This document shows, one piece after another, positions 7,721 to 37,865 of a stretch of DNA of 53,221 bases. Under the pieces are notes generated by a model. It ran no database searches, was not told the DNA's origin, and worked only from the letters and a program-made list of their open reading frames with translations. The stretch spans positions 1 through 53,221 of the forward strand of contig JANYIQ010000011.1 of the NCBI GenBank assembly GCA_025362575.1, in the 5' to 3' direction. The position numbers and the translations under genes were made by a program. This stretch comes from Bacteroidia bacterium. Lineage in GTDB: Bacteria; Bacteroidota; Bacteroidia; B-17B0; Aurantibacillaceae. Position 1 is the first letter of the stretch. Each line of letters begins with the position of its first letter.

Positions 7721-8122
7721 ATGAAATTATTTTATTCTGCCCTTATCGTATTATTCTTTGCGGCTTGTGTCCAACCTAAAGAAACAACCTCCGCCGAAAA
7801 TGGCAACGAAGCCGCCGCCGATGACTATTCTCAATTGGATAAATTTTTAGGAAGCTGGACCGATGCAGAGAATGCCGCAGAGGTGATCTCAATTGCAAAG
7901 ATCAAAAATTTTGACAGCGCAAAAGTGTGTATGGTAAACGACGGAAAAACAGAAGTAGCTTTTCCTTACAATGTAAAAGAAGATAAGTTCCGCTTACACC
8001 AGCCTGAATATTGGGTAGAGATCCTTCATGATAAAGAAGCTAACCAACTACTTTGGAAAGTTATCCGTTTTGACGAAAGCGAAGGAAAGGTTGTGCGCAA
8101 GTATAATTTTAAGAGCAAGTAG
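7721..8122 (+). CDS. Small lipoprotein, unknown function
   Basis: A 133-residue protein with a lipoprotein signal peptide: a hydrophobic core (FYSALIVLFFAAC) ending in a lipobox with Cys16, followed by an acidic, Ala-rich linker. The mature part has a 'KFLGSWTDAENAAEVISIAK' motif near residues 43-62, like small beta-barrel (lipocalin-like or DUF-type) lipoproteins that begin with a G-x-W strand. It is likely anchored in the outer or inner membrane. It is convergent with the 3' fragment of yifB, 15 bp away. Family not recognised. Confidence 0.7.
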   Translation: MKLFYSALIVLFFAACVQPKETTSAENGNEAAADDYSQLDKFLGSWTDAENAAEVISIAKIKNFDSAKVCMVNDGKTEVAFPYNVKEDKFRLHQPEYWVEILHDKEANQLLWKVIRFDESEGKVVRKYNFKSK

Positions 8123-8137
8123 CCTCAAACTTGTTTT

Positions 8138-8842
8138 CTAAGCTGCCCATCCGTCTCTGTCCAGACTTCTATACTGAATTGCTTCGGCAATGTGATTCGG
8201 CATAATGTTTTCAGAAGCTTCCAGATCTGCAATGGTTCTTCCTACTTTTAAGATCCGGTCGTAAGCGCGAGCCGATAATCCTAATTTTTCCATGGCGGTT
8301 TTTAGAAGTGTATTTCCTGCCTCACTTAATTTGCAATATGTTTTTATATCGGAAGAACGCATCTGTGCATTACAATAAATACCGCTATCTGAATTGAACC
8401 TCTTCGTTTGTATCAACCTTGCATTAATTACACGCTCACGGATATTGTTACTCGACTCTGCTAATTGCTGATTACTTAATTCGCTGAAAGGAACCGGAGT
8501 AACCTCCACGTGCAGATCAATTCTATCTAACAGCGGGCCTGAAATTCTGTTGAGGTATTTTTGTACCACGCCAGGCGCGCATACACATTCTTTTTCAGGA
8601 TGATTGAAGTAACCGCATGGGCAAGGATTCATACTCGCCACAAGCATAAAGCTTGCAGGATATTCCACGCTGAATTTGGCACGACTGATCGTTACCACCC
8701 TGTCTTCTAACGGTTGACGCATTACCTCTAAAACAGTTCTTTTAAATTCAGGCAATTCATCTAAAAATAGAACGCCGTTATGTGCCAGCGAGATTTCGCC
8801 GGGCTGAGGATTATTGCCACCTCCTACGAGGGCCACATCGGT
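8138..8842 (-). pseudogene. yifB: 3' fragment of yifB/comM (Mg chelatase-like AAA+ ATPase)
   Basis: From DVALVGGG at about 8839 down to the stop at 8138 this is the C-terminal half of YifB/ComM: Walker B ([11 protein letters not shown]), the arginine-rich [10 protein letters not shown], a zinc-like Cys cluster ([17 protein letters not shown]), [16 protein letters not shown], and the C-terminal Mg_chelatase domain ([20 protein letters not shown]). ComM is a helicase-like branch-migration factor in natural transformation. The frame stays open for ~68 codons upstream of the junction (to 9046), but those residues do not match YifB. The segment with Walker A is missing from both fragments, so the product cannot be a normal ATPase. 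Confidence 0.9.
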
Positions 8843-9566: not shown

Positions 9567-12215
9567 ATGGCAAATAAAATTTCACTTTCACGATTAGAAA
9601 CATTCCTTTTTGACGCTTGCGATATTCTGCGAGGAAATATGGATGCGTCTGAGTACAAGGAATACATAATCTCAATGTTATTTCTTAAAAGAGTAAACGA
9701 CCAATTCGATGTGCATAGAGATAAACGCAAAAAGAAATTGGTAGAAGAAAAAGGACTCAACGACCCCAATGAAATTTACAAGGAATTGGAAATTCAGAAC
9801 GCACCTGAATATGATTTCTTTGTTCCGCTATCAGCAAGATGGAAGCGTTTAGCTGGAGACCCGGAATTTTTTACGGATGAAGAAGGAAAACAACAAGCAA
9901 ATAATTTCATTAAAGATTTGCAAGAAGAAATTGGAGACCATTTAAACAAATCGTTGGCTGCATTAGAAAGTGCTAACCTTGATAAGTTGGATGGTGTATT
10001 CAATCAGGATAACATCAATTTCAATAAGACTTTTGGAAAAAACAATAAGCAAATTAGTGATGAGGATTTAAGAGAACTGATTCGTCACTTCAATAAAATG
10101 AATCTTCGGGATGATAATTTGGAATTTCCGGATTTGATGGGCGCGGCTTATGAATATCTTATTAAACATTTTGCAGACAGTGCCGGTAAGAAGGCCGGAG
10201 AATTCTACACTCCAAGTGAAGTAGTTAAACTTTTAGTAAATATTCTTGAACCAGGAGAAGATGCTGAAATTTATGACCCCACTTTAGGAAGTGGCGGTAT
10301 GCTAATTGAAAGTAGAAACTATGTGGAAAGTCGTTATGGCAGTGCCAAAAACCTTTCACTATATGGCCAAGAGAAAAGCGGAACCGTTTGGGGGTTGTGT
10401 AAAATGAATATGTTGTTTCATAGCATTTATGACAGCAAGATATTGAATGGAGATACACTTGTAAAATCCTTACATACCGAGAATGGTGAATTAAAAACAT
10501 TTGACATTGTAATAGCTAATCCGCCTTTCTCCCAGAATTATAGTTGGGCAGCTACGCAACAGAGAGAGCGATTCCATTTTAGAATGGCAGAAAAAGGAAA
10601 AGCTGATTTTATGTTTGTGCAACACATGGTCGCTTCTCTAAAAAATGATGGGCGTATGGCCGTGGTAATGCCTCATGGTGTACTGTTTCGTGGTGGCGAT
10701 GAAAGAAAATTTAGGGAGTGGCTGATTCAACTTACGGGCAGCGGTGACCGCTGTTTTCTTGAGGCAGTTATTGGCTTGCCCTCTGCTTTGTTTTATGGAA
10801 CTGGCATTGGCGCAAGTGTTATTGTCATAAATAAAAAGAATGCTCATATCCGTGACAAAGTTCTTTTTATAAATGCTGACCGAGAATATAAAGAAGGGAA
10901 AAACCAGAACAAATTACGTCCTGAAGACATTGAAAAAATAGCGTTCACTTACCGAAACAAAAAAGAAATTTTAAAATACAGTAAGCTTATAAGTAAAAAG
11001 GAACTGGCTATTGAAGAATATAATTTAAACATTAAGAGATTTGTTGACAATGCACCACCTCCGGAACCTAATGATGTTCACGCTCATTTGCTAGGTGGTA
11101 TTCCTGAAAACGAAGTTAAATCACTTAAAGCGTTTTTAAATTGTTATAATGGAATAAATAAAAAATTGTTTGAGAATCTGAAAAAAGGATATTTAAAATT
11201 TACCTCTGCTATTGTTCAAAAAGAGGATATTAAAAAATTATTTGATGATAGTGATGAAATAAAAACGGCTCAGGCCCAGTACATAAATGCAATTCATGAG
11301 TGGTGGCAACAACAAGTGCCCGTCATTGAACAATTGCCTAATAAAACCATCAATGTATTTGACCTCTATCATCAGTTCTCAGCAACGCTTACTGAAAAAT
11401 TGGTTGCATTACCCATTTTAGACGAATTTAAAAGCAGGGGCTCGTTCGCAAGTTATTGGAATTGCATTACTAATGATATTAAAAGTGTTGAAGCCAGTGG
11501 ATGGAATGCCGAGTTGATACCGGATGACGAAATCTTGGAAAGCCAATTTCCTGAAGTGTTGACGGAATTGCGAACCAATGAGTCAAGACGAGATGAGCTA
11601 CAATCTAAATTTGATGAAGTAAACGAATTGGAAGATGATGTTTGGAATGAAGAGGACTATGAAGTATGGCGAAGCAAGGAGATGAAAGAACACAAAGAAG
11701 AAATTAAGACCCTGAAAAGCGAACGCAAAGAAATAGATAAAGAGTTTAAGAATTTACAGAAAAGAACAAAAGCAAATGAAAAAGCGGGCGCTATGTTTAG
11801 TGTTGAAGTAGATGACCTAAAAAAAGATTCTGAAAGAATGAAATTACAACTAAAACAATTAGATGAACAAATTGAATCGGGCGAACTGCGTTTCGCAAAA
11901 CATACTTTATTAGAAGAAGAGCTAAAACAGTGTAAGAAAATAATTAAGGAGATAAAAGACCGTAAACAAAATCTTGTAGACCAAGCTCGTTTGAGCATTA
12001 CACCTGAAGCCGCCAAAGAATTAATACTAAAACGATGGCTACTTACACTGCACCAAACGATAACGGGGTATTTGTTGGCTCACCAAAGATTTTTATTGAA
12101 TGCCATTGAAATGCTTTTTGAAAAATACACTACAACTTTAGAAAGCATTTTAAGTATAAGGGAGAAAGAAACCAAACTGTTAAATGAATTCTTAATAGAA
12201 TTGGGTTATGAATAA
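9567..12215 (+). CDS. hsdM: Type I restriction-modification DNA methyltransferase subunit HsdM
   Basis: N6-adenine methyltransferase subunit. An HsdM_N helical domain (residues about 1-150) precedes the MTase domain with SAM motif I DPTLGSGG (D237) and catalytic motif IV NPPF (N318-F321). At 882 residues it is much longer than the common ~500-550. The extra C-terminal ~350 residues include a charged coiled coil at about 690-820 (many KE/EK repeats such as [17 protein letters not shown]). The 3' end overlaps hsdS by eight bases, implying coupled translation. With HsdS it should form a working methylase even though hsdR is broken. Confidence 0.93.
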
Positions 12216-30759: not shown

Positions 30760-32451
30760 ATGCAAAGACATTTTGTGCAAAAAGAATTCACGGTTACCAA
30801 TTGGGAACTGTTGGAACCGTATTTTAAGGATCTTGAGAACCGAAAAATAAATTCGGTAAAGGATCTTGAAAAATGGCTGCTCGATTACAGTGAGCTTGGC
30901 GCGGTGGTAAGTGAGAACATGGCCTGGCGCTATATAAAAATGACCTGTGATACAGCGAACGAAGCGATCAAAAACAGCTTTAATGATTTTGTGGTGAACA
31001 TTGAACCGCATTTGTCGCCAATTGGAAACGAGCTTAACAAAAAATTATTGGCCGCACCTCAAATTAATGAATTGAATAAGGAAAAATATTTTGTTTACAT
31101 ACGCGGCATAAAAAAAAGCATTGAATTATTCAGGGAAGAGAACATTCCTTTGTTCACTGAGTTACAACAAAAGGAGCAGGAGTTTGGCTCCATTTCCGGT
31201 GCACAAAGCATTGAGCACGGCGGCGAAAAAATGACCCTGCAAAAAGCGGCAGTGTTTTTAAAAGATGCCAATCGTGCATTGCGAGAAGAAGTGTATCGCA
31301 AGATCTGGACCAGAAGAGGACAGGATGAAAAAGCATTGAACGACCTGTTCACGAATTTAATTGAACTGCGTCACAAAGTGGCATTGAATACAGGCTTCAA
31401 AAATTTCAGAGATTACAAGCATCAGGCGCTTGGTCGTTTTGATTATAGTGTACAAGATTGTTTGAATTTTCATGAAGCGGTTAAATTGCATGTGGTGCCA
31501 TTGGTAACCGCACAGGAAAAAAATCGCAAGACAAAGTTGAAATTGGAGGATTACCGTCCCTGGGATAAAGATGTGGATGCCGAAGGAAAACCGCCTTTGA
31601 AACCATTTACAACAGCAAAAGAACTGGTTGAGAAAACCATAAAATGTTTTAATTCCATTGATCCCTTTTTTGGAGATTGCATAAAAACAATGGATAAGAT
31701 GGGACGATTGGATCTTGAATCGCGAATGGGAAAATCGCCGGGAGGATACCAGTACCCGCTTTATGAAACAGAGATCCCTTTTATTTTTATGAACTCCGTG
31801 GGCTTGCATCGTGATTTAGTTACAATGGTACACGAGGGCGGACATGCCATTCATTCGTTTTTGGATATTCCGTTGGAGTTGGTAGATTTTAAATCGCCGC
31901 CAAGTGAAGTGGCAGAACTCGCCAGCATGAGCATGGAATTAATAAGTATGGAACACTGGGATTCTTTTTTTGAAAACGCCGATGATTTAAAACGCGCAAA
32001 AAGACAACAGTTAGAAAGTGTGTTGGATGCATTACCATGGATCGCAGCTATTGATAAATTCCAGCATTGGATCTATGAGAACCCGACGCATACGGTTGAG
32101 CAACGCTACGTCACCTGGACTAACATTATGAAAGATTTTGGAAGTGGTGTTGTAAATTACGAAGGCATTGAAGAAAATTTGAAACGCCGTTGGCAGGTAC
32201 AATTACATTTGTTTGAAGTTCCTTTTTATTATATCGAATATGGCTTTGCACAACTTGGCGCCATTGCCGTTTGGCGTAATTATAAGAAAGATCCGAAGAA
32301 AGCAATCGAACAATACAAAGCGGCTTTAGCTTTAGGCTACACAAAAACCATTCCCGAAGTTTATAAAACAGCAGGAATAGAATTTAATTTCTCTCCTGCT
32401 TACGTAAAGGAATTAGCAGATTTTGTGAAAGCGGAGTATGATAAATTGTAA
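30760..32451 (+). CDS. pepF: M3 family oligoendopeptidase (PepF/thimet-like)
   Basis: A 563-residue zinc metallopeptidase. The zinc site is HEGGH (residues 358-362, in MVHEGGHAIHSF) and a Glu ligand follows ~25 residues later in SPPSEVAELASMSMELIS. The N-terminal part is helical as in M3B enzymes, and the length matches the pepF-like type. It degrades peptides in the cytoplasm. The last 13 codons (ELADFVKAEYDKL-stop) reappear downstream as diverged vestiges at 33878-33919 and, shorter, at 32793-32810. Confidence 0.9.
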   Translation: MQRHFVQKEFTVTNWELLEPYFKDLENRKINSVKDLEKWLLDYSELGAVVSENMAWRYIKMTCDTANEAIKNSFNDFVVNIEPHLSPIGNELNKKLLAAPQINELNKEKYFVYIRGIKKSIELFREENIPLFTELQQKEQEFGSISGAQSIEHGGEKMTLQKAAVFLKDANRALREEVYRKIWTRRGQDEKALNDLFTNLIELRHKVALNTGFKNFRDYKHQALGRFDYSVQDCLNFHEAVKLHVVPLVTAQEKNRKTKLKLEDYRPWDKDVDAEGKPPLKPFTTAKELVEKTIKCFNSIDPFFGDCIKTMDKMGRLDLESRMGKSPGGYQYPLYETEIPFIFMNSVGLHRDLVTMVHEGGHAIHSFLDIPLELVDFKSPPSEVAELASMSMELISMEHWDSFFENADDLKRAKRQQLESVLDALPWIAAIDKFQHWIYENPTHTVEQRYVTWTNIMKDFGSGVVNYEGIEENLKRRWQVQLHLFEVPFYYIEYGFAQLGAIAVWRNYKKDPKKAIEQYKAALALGYTKTIPEVYKTAGIEFNFSPAYVKELADFVKAEYDKL

Positions 32452-32700
32452 AATAGGCTGGTAGGTTAGCTTTGTGTTGGCCGGCAAGCGGAGTTCATTA
32501 GTATTCGAAATATTTAGCATTTCGCCCCTAAAGGGCTTTAATCACAAGGGGGTAATTGTTTTCTATTAATATTAAACCCCTCCGGGCTTATGTGTTATGC
32601 TCATTGGCTTCTTAGGAGCCCAACATTAATAGAAAAAATTAGCCGGAAGAATAGAAGCGCCGTAGGTGCGAAACATAATTTAGCACGTTTAGAACAACAT
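32452..32700. repeat. Repeat-rich intergenic region after pepF
   Basis: With the adjoining direct repeat this is a 361-bp gap. It contains GC-rich palindromes of the type seen at 27794: GCCC-CTAAA-GGGC (32524-32536), an imperfect CCCC-TCC-GGGC near 32576-32587, and GCGCC-GTA-GGTGCG near 32658-32671. No gene is supported on either strand; the open frames here are short and lack any family likeness. Confidence 0.5.
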
Positions 32701-32810
32701 TGAGCTTTGCTCCCGATTGAGAAGAATTTTGCCCGGTCGAGAGCATAGCTCATCGACCAGCGCATTGTGGAATAGCGGCCCTTGAGCAACGGGAGTATGA
32801 TAAGTTGTGA
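32701..32810 (+). repeat. Direct repeat A, with vestige of pepF 3' end
   Basis: A ~110-bp unit that matches 33785-33919 in the same orientation (long exact stretches such as TGAGCTTTGCTCCCGA, GGTCGAGAGCAT and CATCGACCAGCGCATTGTG). It contains the stem GGTCGA..TCGACC (32735-32758). Its end, 32793-32810, reads GAG TAT GAT AAG TTG TGA, i.e. EYDKL-stop, the last residues of pepF. Relative to copy B it lacks ~25 bp just before that vestige. Together, copies A and B flank the OmpA-like gene. Confidence 0.7.
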
Positions 32811-32812
32811 TA

Positions 32813-33730
32813 TTACTTTTTAGTTTCAGGAATAAAAAAGACTTCTACCCTGCGGTTTTGTTGACGACCTTCAGGCGTTGAATTATTGGATACAGGAATG
32901 TCTCCGGCGTACCCAATAGTTTTTATTTTGTTTTCAAAAGCCGGTAATGTTTTTACAATATATGTTTTGATTGATCTTGCTCTGTCATCAGATAACTTCA
33001 AATTACTTGCTTGTGTTCCTATACTATCTGTATGCCCTTGGATCACGATATTAAAATCAGGATTTGTTTTTAAAAGCATTATTATTGAATCCAGGCTTTG
33101 TTTAGCACCGCTTTTTATTTTTGACTCAGCGGTATTAAAAAGATAAAGAGCATTCAGGGAAAGCTTTTTGACAGAACCAATTGCGGCCACCGCGTCAATA
33201 TCAGCACCCGGCCATGTCTTGTCGTTAGTGAGCAAAGAACTTTTCGCGTCTTGTAATCTGATATATGTAAATATTTCCCCAGGCTGTGTAGAATCTCCAA
33301 TATCAACTAAAGCATTTCCGCCGCCAATCTTGCCCACATTCTTCCAATCTTTTCCGTTCTTTGAAACAGAGAGGTAAGTATCTTCAATGTATTTTCCAAC
33401 TTCAAAAACATATAGATCCGGACCCTCAATATTTACCAGGGCATTATCGTTGAAAGACAGGATAAGTTCACCTCCAATACCAAGTGATACAAAACCAGAT
33501 ACAGTCTTCTCGTTAAAATCCGGAAGTCCAAGGGCATCCTGAGCTCTTGTGTTTTTCGCCGGCGCCGGATTTCCAGGAACATAACGCACCATTTTATCTG
33601 CAAAAGAAATATCACCTAGCGGAAGTTTTATCTTACCACCATGTCCATTAGAATATTCTTTTTCTGTTGATTGACAAAAGAGAAAAGTAGAAATTAAAAG
33701 AAAGAAAAGACAAAAAACAGATTTATGCAT
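32813..33730 (-). CDS. OmpA-family secreted protein with a discoidin-like middle domain
   Basis: A 305-residue envelope protein: signal peptide (VFCLFFLLISTFLFCQ); a middle domain at about residues 30-175 of the kind with 'SLGIGGELILSFNDNA', 'PDLYVFEVG' and 'WPGADIDAVAAIGS', found in Bacteroidota and PEP-CTERM-type surface proteins and likely a beta-sandwich that binds ligands or metals; then an OmpA peptidoglycan-binding domain with IQGHTDSIG, LSDDRARSIKTYI and QQNRRVEVFF. Role inferred: outer-membrane or periplasmic anchor. It is the only gene between the two direct repeats, which suggests it was inserted or moved as a unit. Confidence 0.82.
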   Translation of the reverse strand: MHKSVFCLFFLLISTFLFCQSTEKEYSNGHGGKIKLPLGDISFADKMVRYVPGNPAPAKNTRAQDALGLPDFNEKTVSGFVSLGIGGELILSFNDNALVNIEGPDLYVFEVGKYIEDTYLSVSKNGKDWKNVGKIGGGNALVDIGDSTQPGEIFTYIRLQDAKSSLLTNDKTWPGADIDAVAAIGSVKKLSLNALYLFNTAESKIKSGAKQSLDSIIMLLKTNPDFNIVIQGHTDSIGTQASNLKLSDDRARSIKTYIVKTLPAFENKIKTIGYAGDIPVSNNSTPEGRQQNRRVEVFFIPETKK

Positions 33731-33776
33731 AGTATAAATATAGGGTAATCATTTCGCATACTTCCAATTTTTTGTG

Positions 33777-33843
33777 GTGGTCGGTGAGCTTTGCTCCCGA
33801 CCACGAGGAGTTTTTGTCCGGTCGAGAGCATAACTCATCGACC
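33777..33843 (+). repeat. Paired long stem-loops in direct repeat B
   Basis: First stem: GTGGTCGG (33777-33784) pairs with CCGACCAC (33797-33804), continued inside by GAGC/GCTC with one bulged T and a TTT loop. Second stem: GGTCGA (33820-33825) with TCGACC (33838-33843). The two hairpins have related sequences, like the paired palindromes of BIME elements. In copy A the first stem's outer half is lost. Confidence 0.55.
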
Positions 33844-33919
33844 AGCGCATTGTGAAATTGCAGCCCTTGAGCAACAAGAGTTAGCTGATTTTGTGAAGGC
33901 GGAGTATGATAAGCTGTAA
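33785..33919 (+). repeat. Direct repeat B, with longer vestige of pepF 3' end
   Basis: The ~135-bp partner of the unit at 32701-32810. After the shared palindromic part it continues into 33878-33919, which encodes the pepF C-terminus. It lies directly between the start of the OmpA-like gene and the 3' end of the methyltransferase gene. Confidence 0.7.
33878..33919 (+). pseudogene. Vestigial pepF 3' end (last 13 codons plus stop)
   Basis: Fourteen codons reading ELADFVKAEYDKL-stop, exactly the peptide at the end of pepF (32410-32451). Compared with that gene five bases differ (GAA/GAG, GCA/GCT, AAA/AAG, AAA/AAG, TTG/CTG) and all five are synonymous. The piece has no upstream coding sequence. 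It looks like what is left of a second pepF copy or of the original 3' end after gene replacement. Confidence 0.7.
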
Positions 33920-33921
33920 AA

Positions 33922-34554
33922 TTATCTCTCGGCAATTAAAATAAGATCAGTTATTTTTGTGCCATCTTGTGTTGGAAAGTCCTGCTGAATTATTTCTAGC
34001 ATTTTAAATCCGTTTTTTATAAGCGCTTCGCTTAAATAATCTTCCTGATGAAAATGCATGAAGATCTCGTCGCCACTGCTTCCTTTTTTAAAATTAGATT
34101 TGGCATAATCATCCTCCATGGTGCTTATGTAAAGTATGCCTTTTGGATTGAGCACCTTCGAAGCATCTGCAATTAACTGTAAGGCTTCTTCTTTTGATAA
34201 ATAGGGCAAACAAAACCCGCACATCAACCCGTCGTATTTTTTATCCAATTTAGAAATGGCTCTTGCGTCCATTAATTTGAATTCTGCATTGGGATTATTG
34301 ATCTTAGCCAACTCTATCATGTTCAAAGAAAGATCGGTTCCTAAAATTTTAAGATCAGGTCGTTTGTTAAGTAAGTATTTAGTAATGTTTCCGGGGCCGC
34401 AAGCTAATTCTAAAACTTCGGCATTTTGTTTTTTAATGGCATTACAAAAAAAGTCGAAACTCTTTCCATACAAATTCACATCCATGAATTTGGTCTGGTA
34501 CTCTTTGGCGAGTTTATTAAAGATGGCTACAGCGTTTGCGTTCTTATCTAACAT
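33922..34554 (-). CDS. Class I SAM-dependent methyltransferase
   Basis: From the ATG at 34554 the protein is 210 residues (a longer frame to 34596 overlaps ydeI more heavily). SAM motif I VLELACGPGNITKYLL, motif II LGTDLSLNMIELA, then FKLMDARAIS and KYDGLMCGFCLPYLS follow the Methyltransf_25/11 order. Substrate unknown. Its start overlaps the ydeI stop by seven bases, so it is the third gene of the lipoprotein-ydeI-methyltransferase operon. Confidence 0.82.
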   Translation of the reverse strand: MLDKNANAVAIFNKLAKEYQTKFMDVNLYGKSFDFFCNAIKKQNAEVLELACGPGNITKYLLNKRPDLKILGTDLSLNMIELAKINNPNAEFKLMDARAISKLDKKYDGLMCGFCLPYLSKEEALQLIADASKVLNPKGILYISTMEDDYAKSNFKKGSSGDEIFMHFHQEDYLSEALIKNGFKMLEIIQQDFPTQDGTKITDLILIAER

Positions 34555-35165
34555 TTCACATATTTCCAGTTCCTGATCTTTCCTTCGCTCATCCATTCAA
34601 CCGCTTGTTTCAATCTCGAGTTACGGGTTTCTTCGGTTTTAGCATCCGTAACCCAAAGAACATATTCTTTTTTTTGTCCGGGAGAAAAATTCTCAAATGT
34701 AGTTAGTGCTTTTTTATTTTTCTTTAACGCTGTCATAAAATAAGCCGGGATGTCAAGATCTTTTGAACTTGTTTTTTTGCGTGGCGGTAATTTAATTCCG
34801 GCATCGTTCAGCTTCATGCCTTCTTTAATGTATTTGATAAGCACAGAATCTTTTGGAAGATCTTTTAAGGAAGTGATCTTTCCCAAATGCCCCATGGCTT
34901 CTTCTGTTTTGGCTTTTGCAATTAATGTTTTGGCATCGCTCATCAGTGAAGCTTTCCAGAAACCGATGGAACAGTGCTGTTTAAAGGAAGCCATACCGCA
35001 AAGCATGTTTCCTTTGTAGTTAAAATGAGGAAACCCCCACTTAATGGTTTCTTCTGTATCCGGACAAGCCTTATGTACTAATTCGCGAAAATGTTTTAAA
35101 ATTGGCTTTGCAAAACCAGCTGATTTTGAGATATAGGCATCTATGCGTTTATCTTTTTTTGCCAT
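34548..35165 (-). CDS. YdeI/OmpD-associated family protein with DUF1801 domain
   Basis: A 205-residue protein. The N-terminal DUF1801 part has FRELVHKACPDTEETIKWGFPHFNYKG, and the C-terminal part has the YdeI OmpD-associated motif: IPAYFMTALKKNKKALTTFENFSPGQKKEYVLWV and AKTEETRNSRLKQAVEWMSEG. Bacterial relatives are linked to stress and antimicrobial resistance, with no known enzyme activity. It lies three bases after the MORN-like lipoprotein and overlaps the methyltransferase start. Confidence 0.85.
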   Translation of the reverse strand: MAKKDKRIDAYISKSAGFAKPILKHFRELVHKACPDTEETIKWGFPHFNYKGNMLCGMASFKQHCSIGFWKASLMSDAKTLIAKAKTEEAMGHLGKITSLKDLPKDSVLIKYIKEGMKLNDAGIKLPPRKKTSSKDLDIPAYFMTALKKNKKALTTFENFSPGQKKEYVLWVTDAKTEETRNSRLKQAVEWMSEGKIRNWKYVKC

Positions 35166-35762: not shown

Positions 35763-37769
35763 TTATTTTTTTTGCAATTTTTCTATCTCAGCAAGTTTAC
35801 CTTTTGAGTAAGCATCATCCGGTTTTATTTTCAGAACGTCTTCATAAGCAGTTTTCGCTTCTGCATAGCGTTTCATTTTAAAATAGCCTTCTGCTTTTTT
35901 CAATGCCTCTTTGTATTTGTTTCCGCCAAGTTCTTGCGGTATTGCGTGTTTGGCTTCACCGCGATCAACATTGGACGGCGCTTCTGTTTCGGTATCATCA
36001 ATAGGTTTAATTACGGATTTATCAGCAGCTTCTTTGTCTCTTGCTGCTTTTTCTGCGGCTAGTTTATCAGCCTGCTCTTTGTCCTTGGCGGCTTTTTCGG
36101 CAGCCTTTGCCGCTTGTGCATCGGCCTTTGCTTTTTTATCGGCTTCTATTTTATCCTGCGCTGCTTTTTCTTTTGCTGCTTTTTCAGAGGCTTTATTTGC
36201 AGAGGCTTGTTCTTTCGCAATTTTGTCAGCCTCAGCTTTATTTTTCGCAGCTTCTCTGGCCGCATTGTCTGCAGCGATCTTATCGGCTGCCGCTTTTTCT
36301 GCAGCTAGTTTATCAGCTGCCGCTTTATCCTTGGCCGCCTCTTGCGCGACTTTTGCAGCCTGCTCTGCCGCGGCTTTATCTTGCAAAGCTTTTTCCGCAG
36401 CTAATTTATCTGCAGCTACTTTGTCTTGTGTCGCTTTTTCCTTGGCCGCTAATTCGGCGGCTTTTGCAATTTTATCCGCCTCAGCTTTTTCCGCGGCGGA
36501 TCGCTCTGCCGCGATTTTATCTTGTGCTGCTTTCTCAGCTGCTGCTTTATCTTTTGCGGTTTGTTCAGCGACTTTAGCTTGTTTATCTGCCTCTGCTTTA
36601 TCAGCGGCGGCTTTTTCTGCTGCGATTTTACCCTGTGCTGCTTTTTCTGCGGTGGCTTTCTCAGCTGCAAGTTTATCCGCAGCCGCTTTCTCAGCTGCTA
36701 ATTTTTCCTGTGCAGCTTTCTCAGCGGCCGCTTTATCTTTTGCGGCTTGCTCTGCCGCTTTGGCTTGTTTATCTGCCTCTGCTTTTTCTGCGGCTGCTTT
36801 CTCGGCAGCTAATTTCTCTACAGCTGCTTTTTCTGCAGCTAACTTTTCCTGAGCTGCTTTCTCAGCGGCTGCTTTATCTTTTGCGGCTTGCTCTGCGGCT
36901 TTGGCTTGTTTATCTGCTTCTGCTTTGTCTTGTGCTGCTTTGTCTTGTGCTGCTTTCTCGGCGGCTAATTTATCTTTTGCCGCTTGCTCTGCTGCTGCCT
37001 TATCTGCAGCTGCTTTCTCAGCTGCCAGTTTATCCGCGGCTGCTTTTTCTGCATCAGCTTTCGCCTTTGCCGTTGCTTCTTCTTCTTCTTTCTTTTTGGC
37101 AGCCTCTTCTTCTTTTTGTTTCTGTTCAATAAGTGCCAATTGATCTTTAGGATATTGTTTGTTCGGTAAAAGTTTTATTGCATCTTCATAAGAAGTTTTT
37201 GCATTAGCCCAATTCTTAGATTTAAACCCTGCATCACCTTTAGCAATAGCTGCATCATATTTTTTAATTAAGGCTTCTTCCTGATTTCTTATTTTTTCAA
37301 GAGTACTCAATATTTGTGCGGTATAGGAAGCATCATCCGTAAAAACATCTTTACCTGCTACATAACCAACTTTTAGCAAAGGCTGACTAAGCGCCGAGTA
37401 ATCAATGCCGGGTAAAGGTTCAAATAGGGTAAAGGATTCAACCTTTAATCCTTTCTTAAAATTGTCTTTATTTTTATCGGCCGGAACGCCAAGGGTTGAA
37501 ATTGATATTTTTTTTGTAACGTAACCGTCTTTTGTAATAACCAAAGAGTATTCTCCATTGGGTGGAACGTCCAATTTAAATTTGCCGTCACCGGCTGAGG
37601 TGGTTGAAAGCACCAGCGATGAGCCTTTGTATAAACTAATGGTAGCACCGCCCATTCCTTCACCTGCTTTTTCTACAGTGCTGGCAAATACAAACACCCA
37701 ATCTTGTGAAAAGGTTTTAAAGCTGAGAAAAAGTAAAACAAAAAGTACTTTGTAATATTTTCTTGACAT
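35763..37769 (-). CDS. Envelope protein with Ala/Lys-rich coiled coil between TPR motifs
   Basis: From the ATG at 37769 the protein is 668 residues: signal peptide (VLFVLLFLSFKTFSQ), a carboxypeptidase-regulatory-like domain (residues about 23-110; GGATISLYKGSSLV, GDGKFKLDVPPNGEYSLV), a TPR-like motif (FKSKNWANAKTSYEDAIKLL), then ~365 residues of AEK/ADK/AAK repeats (about 220-585), and a second, similar TPR motif (FKMKRYAEAKTAYEDVLKI) at the end. The coil is TolA-like in composition. A unit beginning AEADKQAKAAEQAAKDKAAA recurs three times. Likely periplasm-spanning or tethered. Function unknown. Confidence 0.75.
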   Translation of the reverse strand: MSRKYYKVLFVLLFLSFKTFSQDWVFVFASTVEKAGEGMGGATISLYKGSSLVLSTTSAGDGKFKLDVPPNGEYSLVITKDGYVTKKISISTLGVPADKNKDNFKKGLKVESFTLFEPLPGIDYSALSQPLLKVGYVAGKDVFTDDASYTAQILSTLEKIRNQEEALIKKYDAAIAKGDAGFKSKNWANAKTSYEDAIKLLPNKQYPKDQLALIEQKQKEEEAAKKKEEEEATAKAKADAEKAAADKLAAEKAAADKAAAEQAAKDKLAAEKAAQDKAAQDKAEADKQAKAAEQAAKDKAAAEKAAQEKLAAEKAAVEKLAAEKAAAEKAEADKQAKAAEQAAKDKAAAEKAAQEKLAAEKAAADKLAAEKATAEKAAQGKIAAEKAAADKAEADKQAKVAEQTAKDKAAAEKAAQDKIAAERSAAEKAEADKIAKAAELAAKEKATQDKVAADKLAAEKALQDKAAAEQAAKVAQEAAKDKAAADKLAAEKAAADKIAADNAAREAAKNKAEADKIAKEQASANKASEKAAKEKAAQDKIEADKKAKADAQAAKAAEKAAKDKEQADKLAAEKAARDKEAADKSVIKPIDDTETEAPSNVDRGEAKHAIPQELGGNKYKEALKKAEGYFKMKRYAEAKTAYEDVLKIKPDDAYSKGKLAEIEKLQKK

Positions 37770-37865
37770 CTTATCAGTGATTTTAGTAAATGTAGTTAAA
37801 TGAATTTTCAACCAAAATTAATCATTACAGTATTCAAAAGACCCTAATTTTCTTACATAAATGAA

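Follow-up and report, generated by a model that had tools for sequence, protein, structure and literature searches.

Displaced 3' ends behind a peptidase gene in a Bacteroidia genome as probable scars of one-sided recombination

In homology-facilitated illegitimate recombination (HFIR), homology on one side of an incoming DNA and an illegitimate join on the other lead to the capture of unrelated DNA. According to the discussions in PMC2884548 and PMC3240628, the process is experimentally established in Acinetobacter, Pseudomonas stutzeri, and S. pneumoniae, and it has been invoked for insertions in E. coli (PMC2884548). Kirchberger et al. 2017 (PMC5361080) proposed HFIR for the type VI secretion system (T6SS) arrays of V. 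cholerae, including an effector 3' end that was shifted back; where that paper turns to Rhs tips, it cites the same idea. Here, we analyzed a 53,221-nucleotide stretch (the window) from a Bacteroidia bacterium of the family Aurantibacillaceae (assembly GCA_025362575.1, contig JANYIQ010000011.1), in which a peptidase gene is followed by two partial copies (vestiges) of its own 3' end. Each vestige is probably an earlier 3' end of the peptidase gene, pushed aside when DNA was acquired by HFIR twice in succession.

The peptidase gene occupies positions 30760 to 32451 of the forward strand, and its product is an M3-family oligoendopeptidase (Pfam PF01432, E 7e-45). A first-pass annotation of the window had named it pepF, but the NCBIfam model for PepF proper yields 92 bits (cutoff, 490), whereas TIGR02289, "M3 oligoendopeptidase, not PepF," yields 539 bits (cutoff, 442). 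The open reading frame (ORF) terminates in GAATTAGCAGATTTTGTGAAAGCGGAGTATGATAAATTGTAA, and its functional 3' end (32410 to 32451, ELADFVKAEYDKL-stop, forward strand) is the reference copy of repeat family D1. At the long vestige (tail2; 33878 to 33919, forward strand), GAGTTAGCTGATTTTGTGAAGGCGGAGTATGATAAGCTGTAA specifies in frame the same 13 residues plus stop, with five base changes that are all silent (5/5). The short vestige (tail1; 32793 to 32810, forward strand), GAGTATGATAAGTTGTGA, consists of six codons reading EYDKL-stop, with TGA as the stop; two G residues just before it may also be part of it. All base-level claims of the first-pass annotation about these three versions, which can be read directly from the sequence, were correct.

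The genome (G000) is a draft of 327 contigs and 4.3 Mb, with 98% completeness and 3.7% contamination; comparisons used one genome per species, with eight genomes for the genus. Across the 4.3 Mb, the long vestige lies far beyond chance (E 6e-10); apart from itself, its only matches are the peptidase end and a weak one in the short vestige. The short vestige is weak by itself (E 0.3) but is made credible by its context; G003 provides its best match in the genus, the peptidase end GGGAGTATGATAAGTTGTGAT, which has TGA at the same place. Judged by these matches, both vestiges are peptidase-specific ends. The first-pass annotation had held that membership in a repeat family unrelated to the peptidase would speak against its interpretation; a dispersed repeat was ruled out for the tails, whose matches are confined to the peptidase locus, but such a family does account for the ∼100 bp upstream of each tail (R1 and R2, below). 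A lost tandem paralogue, offered there as a possible source, was rejected: only bare 3' ends of 6 to 27 codons remain in the cases described here, and a second copy was lacking in every congener genome that has a full-length match. A structured RNA was also ruled out, with no Rfam match close to the gathering score. Downstream of the peptidase gene, the order is a dispersed repeat, R1, the short vestige, ompA (reverse strand), R2, the long vestige, and a methyltransferase gene (reverse strand). Each vestige stops 2 nt before the stop of the gene that converges on it, ompA in the first case and the methyltransferase gene in the second.

Under HFIR, a homologous peptidase allele would have contributed its 3' part to the incoming DNA, together with the DNA downstream of it (the cargo). 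The donor would pair with the resident gene and cross over inside it, thereby supplying a complete new gene end, and its far side would join without homology inside the old, redundant 3' end, leaving 6 or 14 codons of it before the old neighbor. Two serial rounds of this one-sided process would give the nested order of new gene end, repeats plus R1, old end 1, ompA, R2, older end 2, and methyltransferase gene. Two comEC-type fragments on separate contigs and one dprA gene are present in the genome, but such competence genes are common; natural transformation is thus only a plausible route of delivery.

The first-pass annotation took the silent-only differences to mean that the copies had diverged under selection. 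A random change in these codons has a chance of about 25% of being silent. Five silent changes out of five have a P of about 0.001 if all changes fell in a neutral copy. Under plain duplication followed by drift, P is 0.010 when both copies mutate equally fast and only one is selected and 0.095 when half of the changes fell in the selected copy. The silent pattern supports transfer but does not prove it and, taken alone, is weaker evidence than the first-pass annotation claimed (P about 0.01 to 0.1 under duplication plus drift). In our analysis, the case for the window is carried, by analogy, by comparisons between sister genomes rather than by the codons.

One pair of sister genomes, G007 and G005 (peptidases 94.9% identical), allows a displaced end to be distinguished from a new one. 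An aldh-like gene of G007 is followed by cargo and a vestige of its own 3' end; in G005, the same gene (about 95% identical) has no insert and ends with TAG and then GTGTCACGTCGAGCG, exactly as the G007 vestige does. Beyond the TAG, the G005 gene runs into GTGTCACGTCGAGCGGAGTCGAG and the G007 vestige into GTGTCACGTCGAGCGAAGTCGAG; the functional G007 gene ends with TGA and leads into the cargo. As the intact G005 end agrees with both the G007 vestige and the DNA that follows it, the vestige is the displaced original end, still in its original place. At a DoxX-like gene, the G007 vestige plus flank is 90% identical over 99 nt to the functional G005 end plus flank, while the functional G007 end differs in its codons as well as its flank and matches G005 less well than the vestige does. 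By this comparison, the new functional end of the G007 DoxX-like gene is a different allele. At both genes, with G005 as the witness, the old end and its flank preserve the ancestral, uninterrupted arrangement. Ends of different alleles with cargo between them are found at the DoxX-like gene and in the window. G005 itself has another, decayed vestige 1.7 kb beyond its DoxX-like gene, behind different cargo.

The peptidase genes of the two sisters differ at 8 positions within the last 45 nt, where 2.3 differences are expected (P 0.002; the most divergent segment of the gene), and the genomes are nonhomologous beyond the peptidase stop. A new end acquired by one sister together with new downstream DNA would produce this pattern. 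In relatives of locus L117, a peptidase locus of another genus that also carries a vestige, the peptidase gene often directly abuts a converging ftsE-like gene, which represents the empty arrangement; at L117 itself, further DNA also lies between the vestige and ftsE. Of what the first-pass annotation proposed, the origin of the scraps from another allele via transfer, not simple recent duplication, is the best-supported part, owing to the sister-genome evidence at other genes. Its phrase "leftovers of another allele" is apt as to the alleles but needs refinement, as in the witnessed cases the resident gene originally ended in what is now the vestige, and the complete gene bears the newcomer end.

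These same loci bear on insertion with long target duplication, in which cargo arriving at a gene end would have duplicated 20 to 80 bp in one step, after which the copies drifted, the functional one only silently. Such a pattern has been described for restriction-modification genes of H. pylori (Nobusato et al. 2000, as related in PMC1643837). Derivation of both copies from one target segment is possible at the G007 aldh-like gene, where 52 nt are duplicated with one internal difference and the functional TGA stop arises at the junction T|GA. It is argued against at the G007 DoxX-like gene, where the vestige plus flank is closer to the functional end of the sister than the functional G007 end is, and the five silent changes in the window have a P of 0.01 to 0.10. 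We consider this explanation unlikely.

Recurrence was assessed by looking for copies of gene ends no farther than 6 kb from the gene in ∼3.34 Mb (2,643 ORFs), comprising the own genome (searched as stretches), G006, G007, G012, and 80 peptidase loci. As the sample was chosen partly around the peptidase (the 80 loci), the counts show recurrence and not an unbiased rate. Vestiges of 3' ends with cargo were found at five genes, namely, the window peptidase and four others (on contig C58, at the aldh-like and DoxX-like genes of G007, and at L117), all with the architecture of gene end, cargo, and old in-frame gene end. Vestiges of 5' ends served as a control; none that was convincing occurred in the ∼3.34 Mb and 2,643 ORFs, and by inspection the other hits were repeats or tandem paralogues. 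The cargo varies. Behind an OmpA-family gene on C58, a contig of the same genome as the window, it consists of a ParE-like toxin and a weakly matching addiction-module antitoxin (a probable antitoxin). At the aldh-like gene of G007 it is a 486-amino-acid (aa) membrane protein that resembles glycosyltransferases, and at the DoxX-like gene it is a protein with a KilA-N/antirepressor-like N terminus (both by inspection). At L117 it is two proteins of 175 and 57 aa without a Pfam or NCBIfam match.

Further details of these loci were recorded. Positions 157 to 1800 of locus L074 (G000:C58) contain the OmpA-family gene end, the genes for the ParE-like toxin and probable antitoxin, a 60-nt gene-end vestige, and REP palindromes; this is a second displaced end in the genome. 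The 175-aa/57-aa pair behind the L117 peptidase (7875 to 8589) is arranged like a toxin-antitoxin pair. Locus L105 has a 30-nt 3'-end vestige without cargo: on the minus strand (11700 to 11880), a gene end recurs in frame 39 nt farther downstream, with a single silent difference. This is perhaps a stripped-down or failed event.

The vestiges measure 6, 14, 17, and 27 codons at different genes, a variability that is expected from nonspecific joins; yet both joins in the window lie at a REPIN terminus. Variable length also bears on site-specific integration, in which a recombinase would use the gene 3' end as attB and the replacement end would come from attP. A new gene end with silent differences plus a displaced old end is the classical product of integration at icd or tRNA genes. 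However, no recombinase was seen among the cargo ORFs by inspection, the length of the vestiges varies, and several unrelated genes are affected. An integrase att site or integrative element was accordingly ruled out, and site-specific integration is extremely improbable overall. One-sided recombination is the simplest process that covers all cases.

The first-pass annotation missed that each vestige in the window begins exactly at the terminus of a ∼100-bp element. R1 (32701 to 32790) and R2 (33775 to 33875) are REPIN-like miniature elements of a REP-type repeat family and are 86% alike. R2 has two strong hairpins (DNA fold z = -4.8), and the fold of R1 is weaker (z -1.1). When aligned with the element ends on contig C57, R1 and R2 share with them the palindromes GGTCG..CGACC and an invariant terminal GTTG. 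Both vestiges start right at this GTTG terminus (R1 abutting the short and R2 the long vestige), with two bases between that can be assigned to either side. C57 encodes a REP-associated tyrosine transposase (RAYT; NF047646, 108 bits with a cutoff of 80; Pfam Y1_Tnp) with palindromes on both flanks, and another RAYT gene above the NF047646 cutoff is on C48. The genome thus holds both the paired inverted REP palindromes with a conserved terminal tetranucleotide and the cognate RAYT that characterize these elements. The R family was considered as peptidase-derived sequence, which was ruled out, as it is REP/RAYT derived. A second interspersed repeat (32494 to 32696) precedes R1 and also occurs on C238 of the same genome beside a REP palindrome (blastn, 74 to 77% over 108 to 146 nt).

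On C57 (locus L072, 11146 to 15410), the RAYT gene has REP palindromes on either side, and shorter copies hold only the RAYT 3' end between the termini. Two of these short copies sit at the truncated ends of neighboring ORFs. We know of no report of REPINs that carry or generate neighboring gene ends.

Exact joins at the REPIN terminus are peculiar to the window and point to one of three events: breakage or nicking at the REPIN end, REPIN insertion plus repair, or copying of an R-tail unit with ompA. Under HFIR, the GTTG terminus of a RAYT-type REPIN was probably a preferred break or nick point. If REPIN transposition was responsible instead, RAYT would have put R into the gene 14 and later 6 codons before the stop, and the truncated gene would later have been restored by recombination with an intact allele. 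Both vestiges start exactly at the conserved GTTG, RAYT genes exist in the genome (C57 and C48), and, by inspection, the preinsertion sequence would be ACTC in both cases. This course is nevertheless very unlikely: it requires the gene to have been repaired two additional times, ACTC does not flank the C57 copies, the G007, L117, and L105 cases lack such an element at the cut, and the REPs on C58 are on the other side. Alternatively, a single R-tail scar may have been copied as a ∼140-bp unit when ompA arrived. In this view, 24 nt that lay between two GAGT repeats were lost from the short tail. The 86% likeness of R1 and R2, the match of the tails at 21/24 positions beyond the gap, the identical join, and the identical 2-nt spacing to a TTA stop are consistent with such copying. 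R differs at 14% of sites, however, and the tails differ only silently, so the tails and R seem unequal in age; we give this scenario a similarly slim chance.

The genes between and behind the vestiges look foreign by sequence comparison. The first (32813 to 33730, reverse strand) encodes a 305-aa OmpA-domain protein (PF00691, E 2e-19) whose full-length homologues are absent from the seven congeners and were found only in other genera, at other loci. The second (33922 to 34596, reverse strand; Pfam Methyltransf_25), which converges on the long vestige and lies 2 nt from its stop codon, encodes a class I methyltransferase with 69% and 68% identity to homologues in G014 and G011, both of other genera, versus 58 to 64% in congeners. 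The DNA right after the peptidase gene differs among the eight genomes of the genus, which makes this boundary a turnover hot spot. Related proteins of ∼175 to 180 aa with an ORF6N-like start recur as cargo after the peptidase in G001, G003, and G007 (62 to 69% identical among these three) and at the DoxX locus of G005. Farther downstream in the window (35763 to 37811) lies a gene for a long Lys/Ala-rich repetitive protein with AAEKAAADKAA units, with a 313-aa open frame on the opposite strand.

Several results weigh against HFIR as the origin of the window copies. When cases were pooled, 18 of the 25 changed codons were silent, for which P is 1e-6 if all changes fell in the neutral copy but 0.22 if half fell in the selected copy; the pooled changes are thus within the drift expectation. 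The functional and vestigial ends of the G007 aldh-like gene are 98% identical, and at three bases they agree with each other but not with G005; same-species exchange or simple duplication would explain this as well as transfer would. The first-pass annotation had proposed searching relatives for a peptidase gene directly before the methyltransferase gene. This search found none among the compared genomes, in which the methyltransferase gene nowhere else adjoins the peptidase gene; neither a donor allele nor an empty site for the window was found among them. Finally, the terminus at which R1 and R2 meet the tails is the same, and the spacing of 2 nt to a TTA stop is also common to the two tails. 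Such agreement suggests a process specific to the terminus or the copying of a single R-tail unit, not two random joins. With these points taken into account, displacement by HFIR, by analogy with the sister loci, is still the probable origin of the window copies.

Short displaced ends are easily overlooked, but they mark the exact site, the anchor gene, and the relative order of past captures, even where the insert has no mobile-element gene. The accessory genes that they flank in this family include a toxin-antitoxin-like pair and a KilA-N-like gene. If such scars were surveyed systematically, the survey could gauge how frequently one-sided recombination introduces new genes in nature. A broader proposal is that, in these Bacteroidota, conserved gene 3' ends generally serve as docking points at which genes are captured and that the illegitimate end comes from REP/RAYT nicking at the termini of the elements; we regard this as speculative and rather improbable. 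If it were true, nested old gene ends would form a readable, ordered record of the acquisitions of each lineage.

No published catalog of displaced 3' ends at conserved genes was found in a literature search. The closest systems each share part of the pattern. One-sided homology, an illegitimate join on the other side, and captured unrelated DNA are those of HFIR, but HFIR is known mainly from transformation or conjugation experiments, whereas here it would be read from genome scars and the anchor gene was left complete. The orphan immunity arrays and effector 3' ends of the V. cholerae T6SS (PMC5361080) and the displacement of Rhs C termini likewise present nested older 3' ends pushed downstream, with HFIR proposed; there, the part that varies and is under selection is the gene end, while here a conserved gene merely regains its end and the cargo is a neighbor unrelated to it. 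In the H. pylori long target duplications, as far as PMC1643837 relates them, an inserted gene also lies between two copies of the target segment; here, at least one case involves different alleles, and in the cases found the duplicated segment ends at a gene 3' end. R1, R2, and the C57 element resemble described REPIN/RAYT elements (PMC3116915, PMC3733652) in their palindromes, GTTG terminus, and RAYT in the genome but differ in that the REPINs adjoin displaced gene ends. We therefore view the locus as the probable product of a known process, an HFIR-type scar, at conserved genes of a Bacteroidota family, with the possible link to REPINs as its unusual trait.

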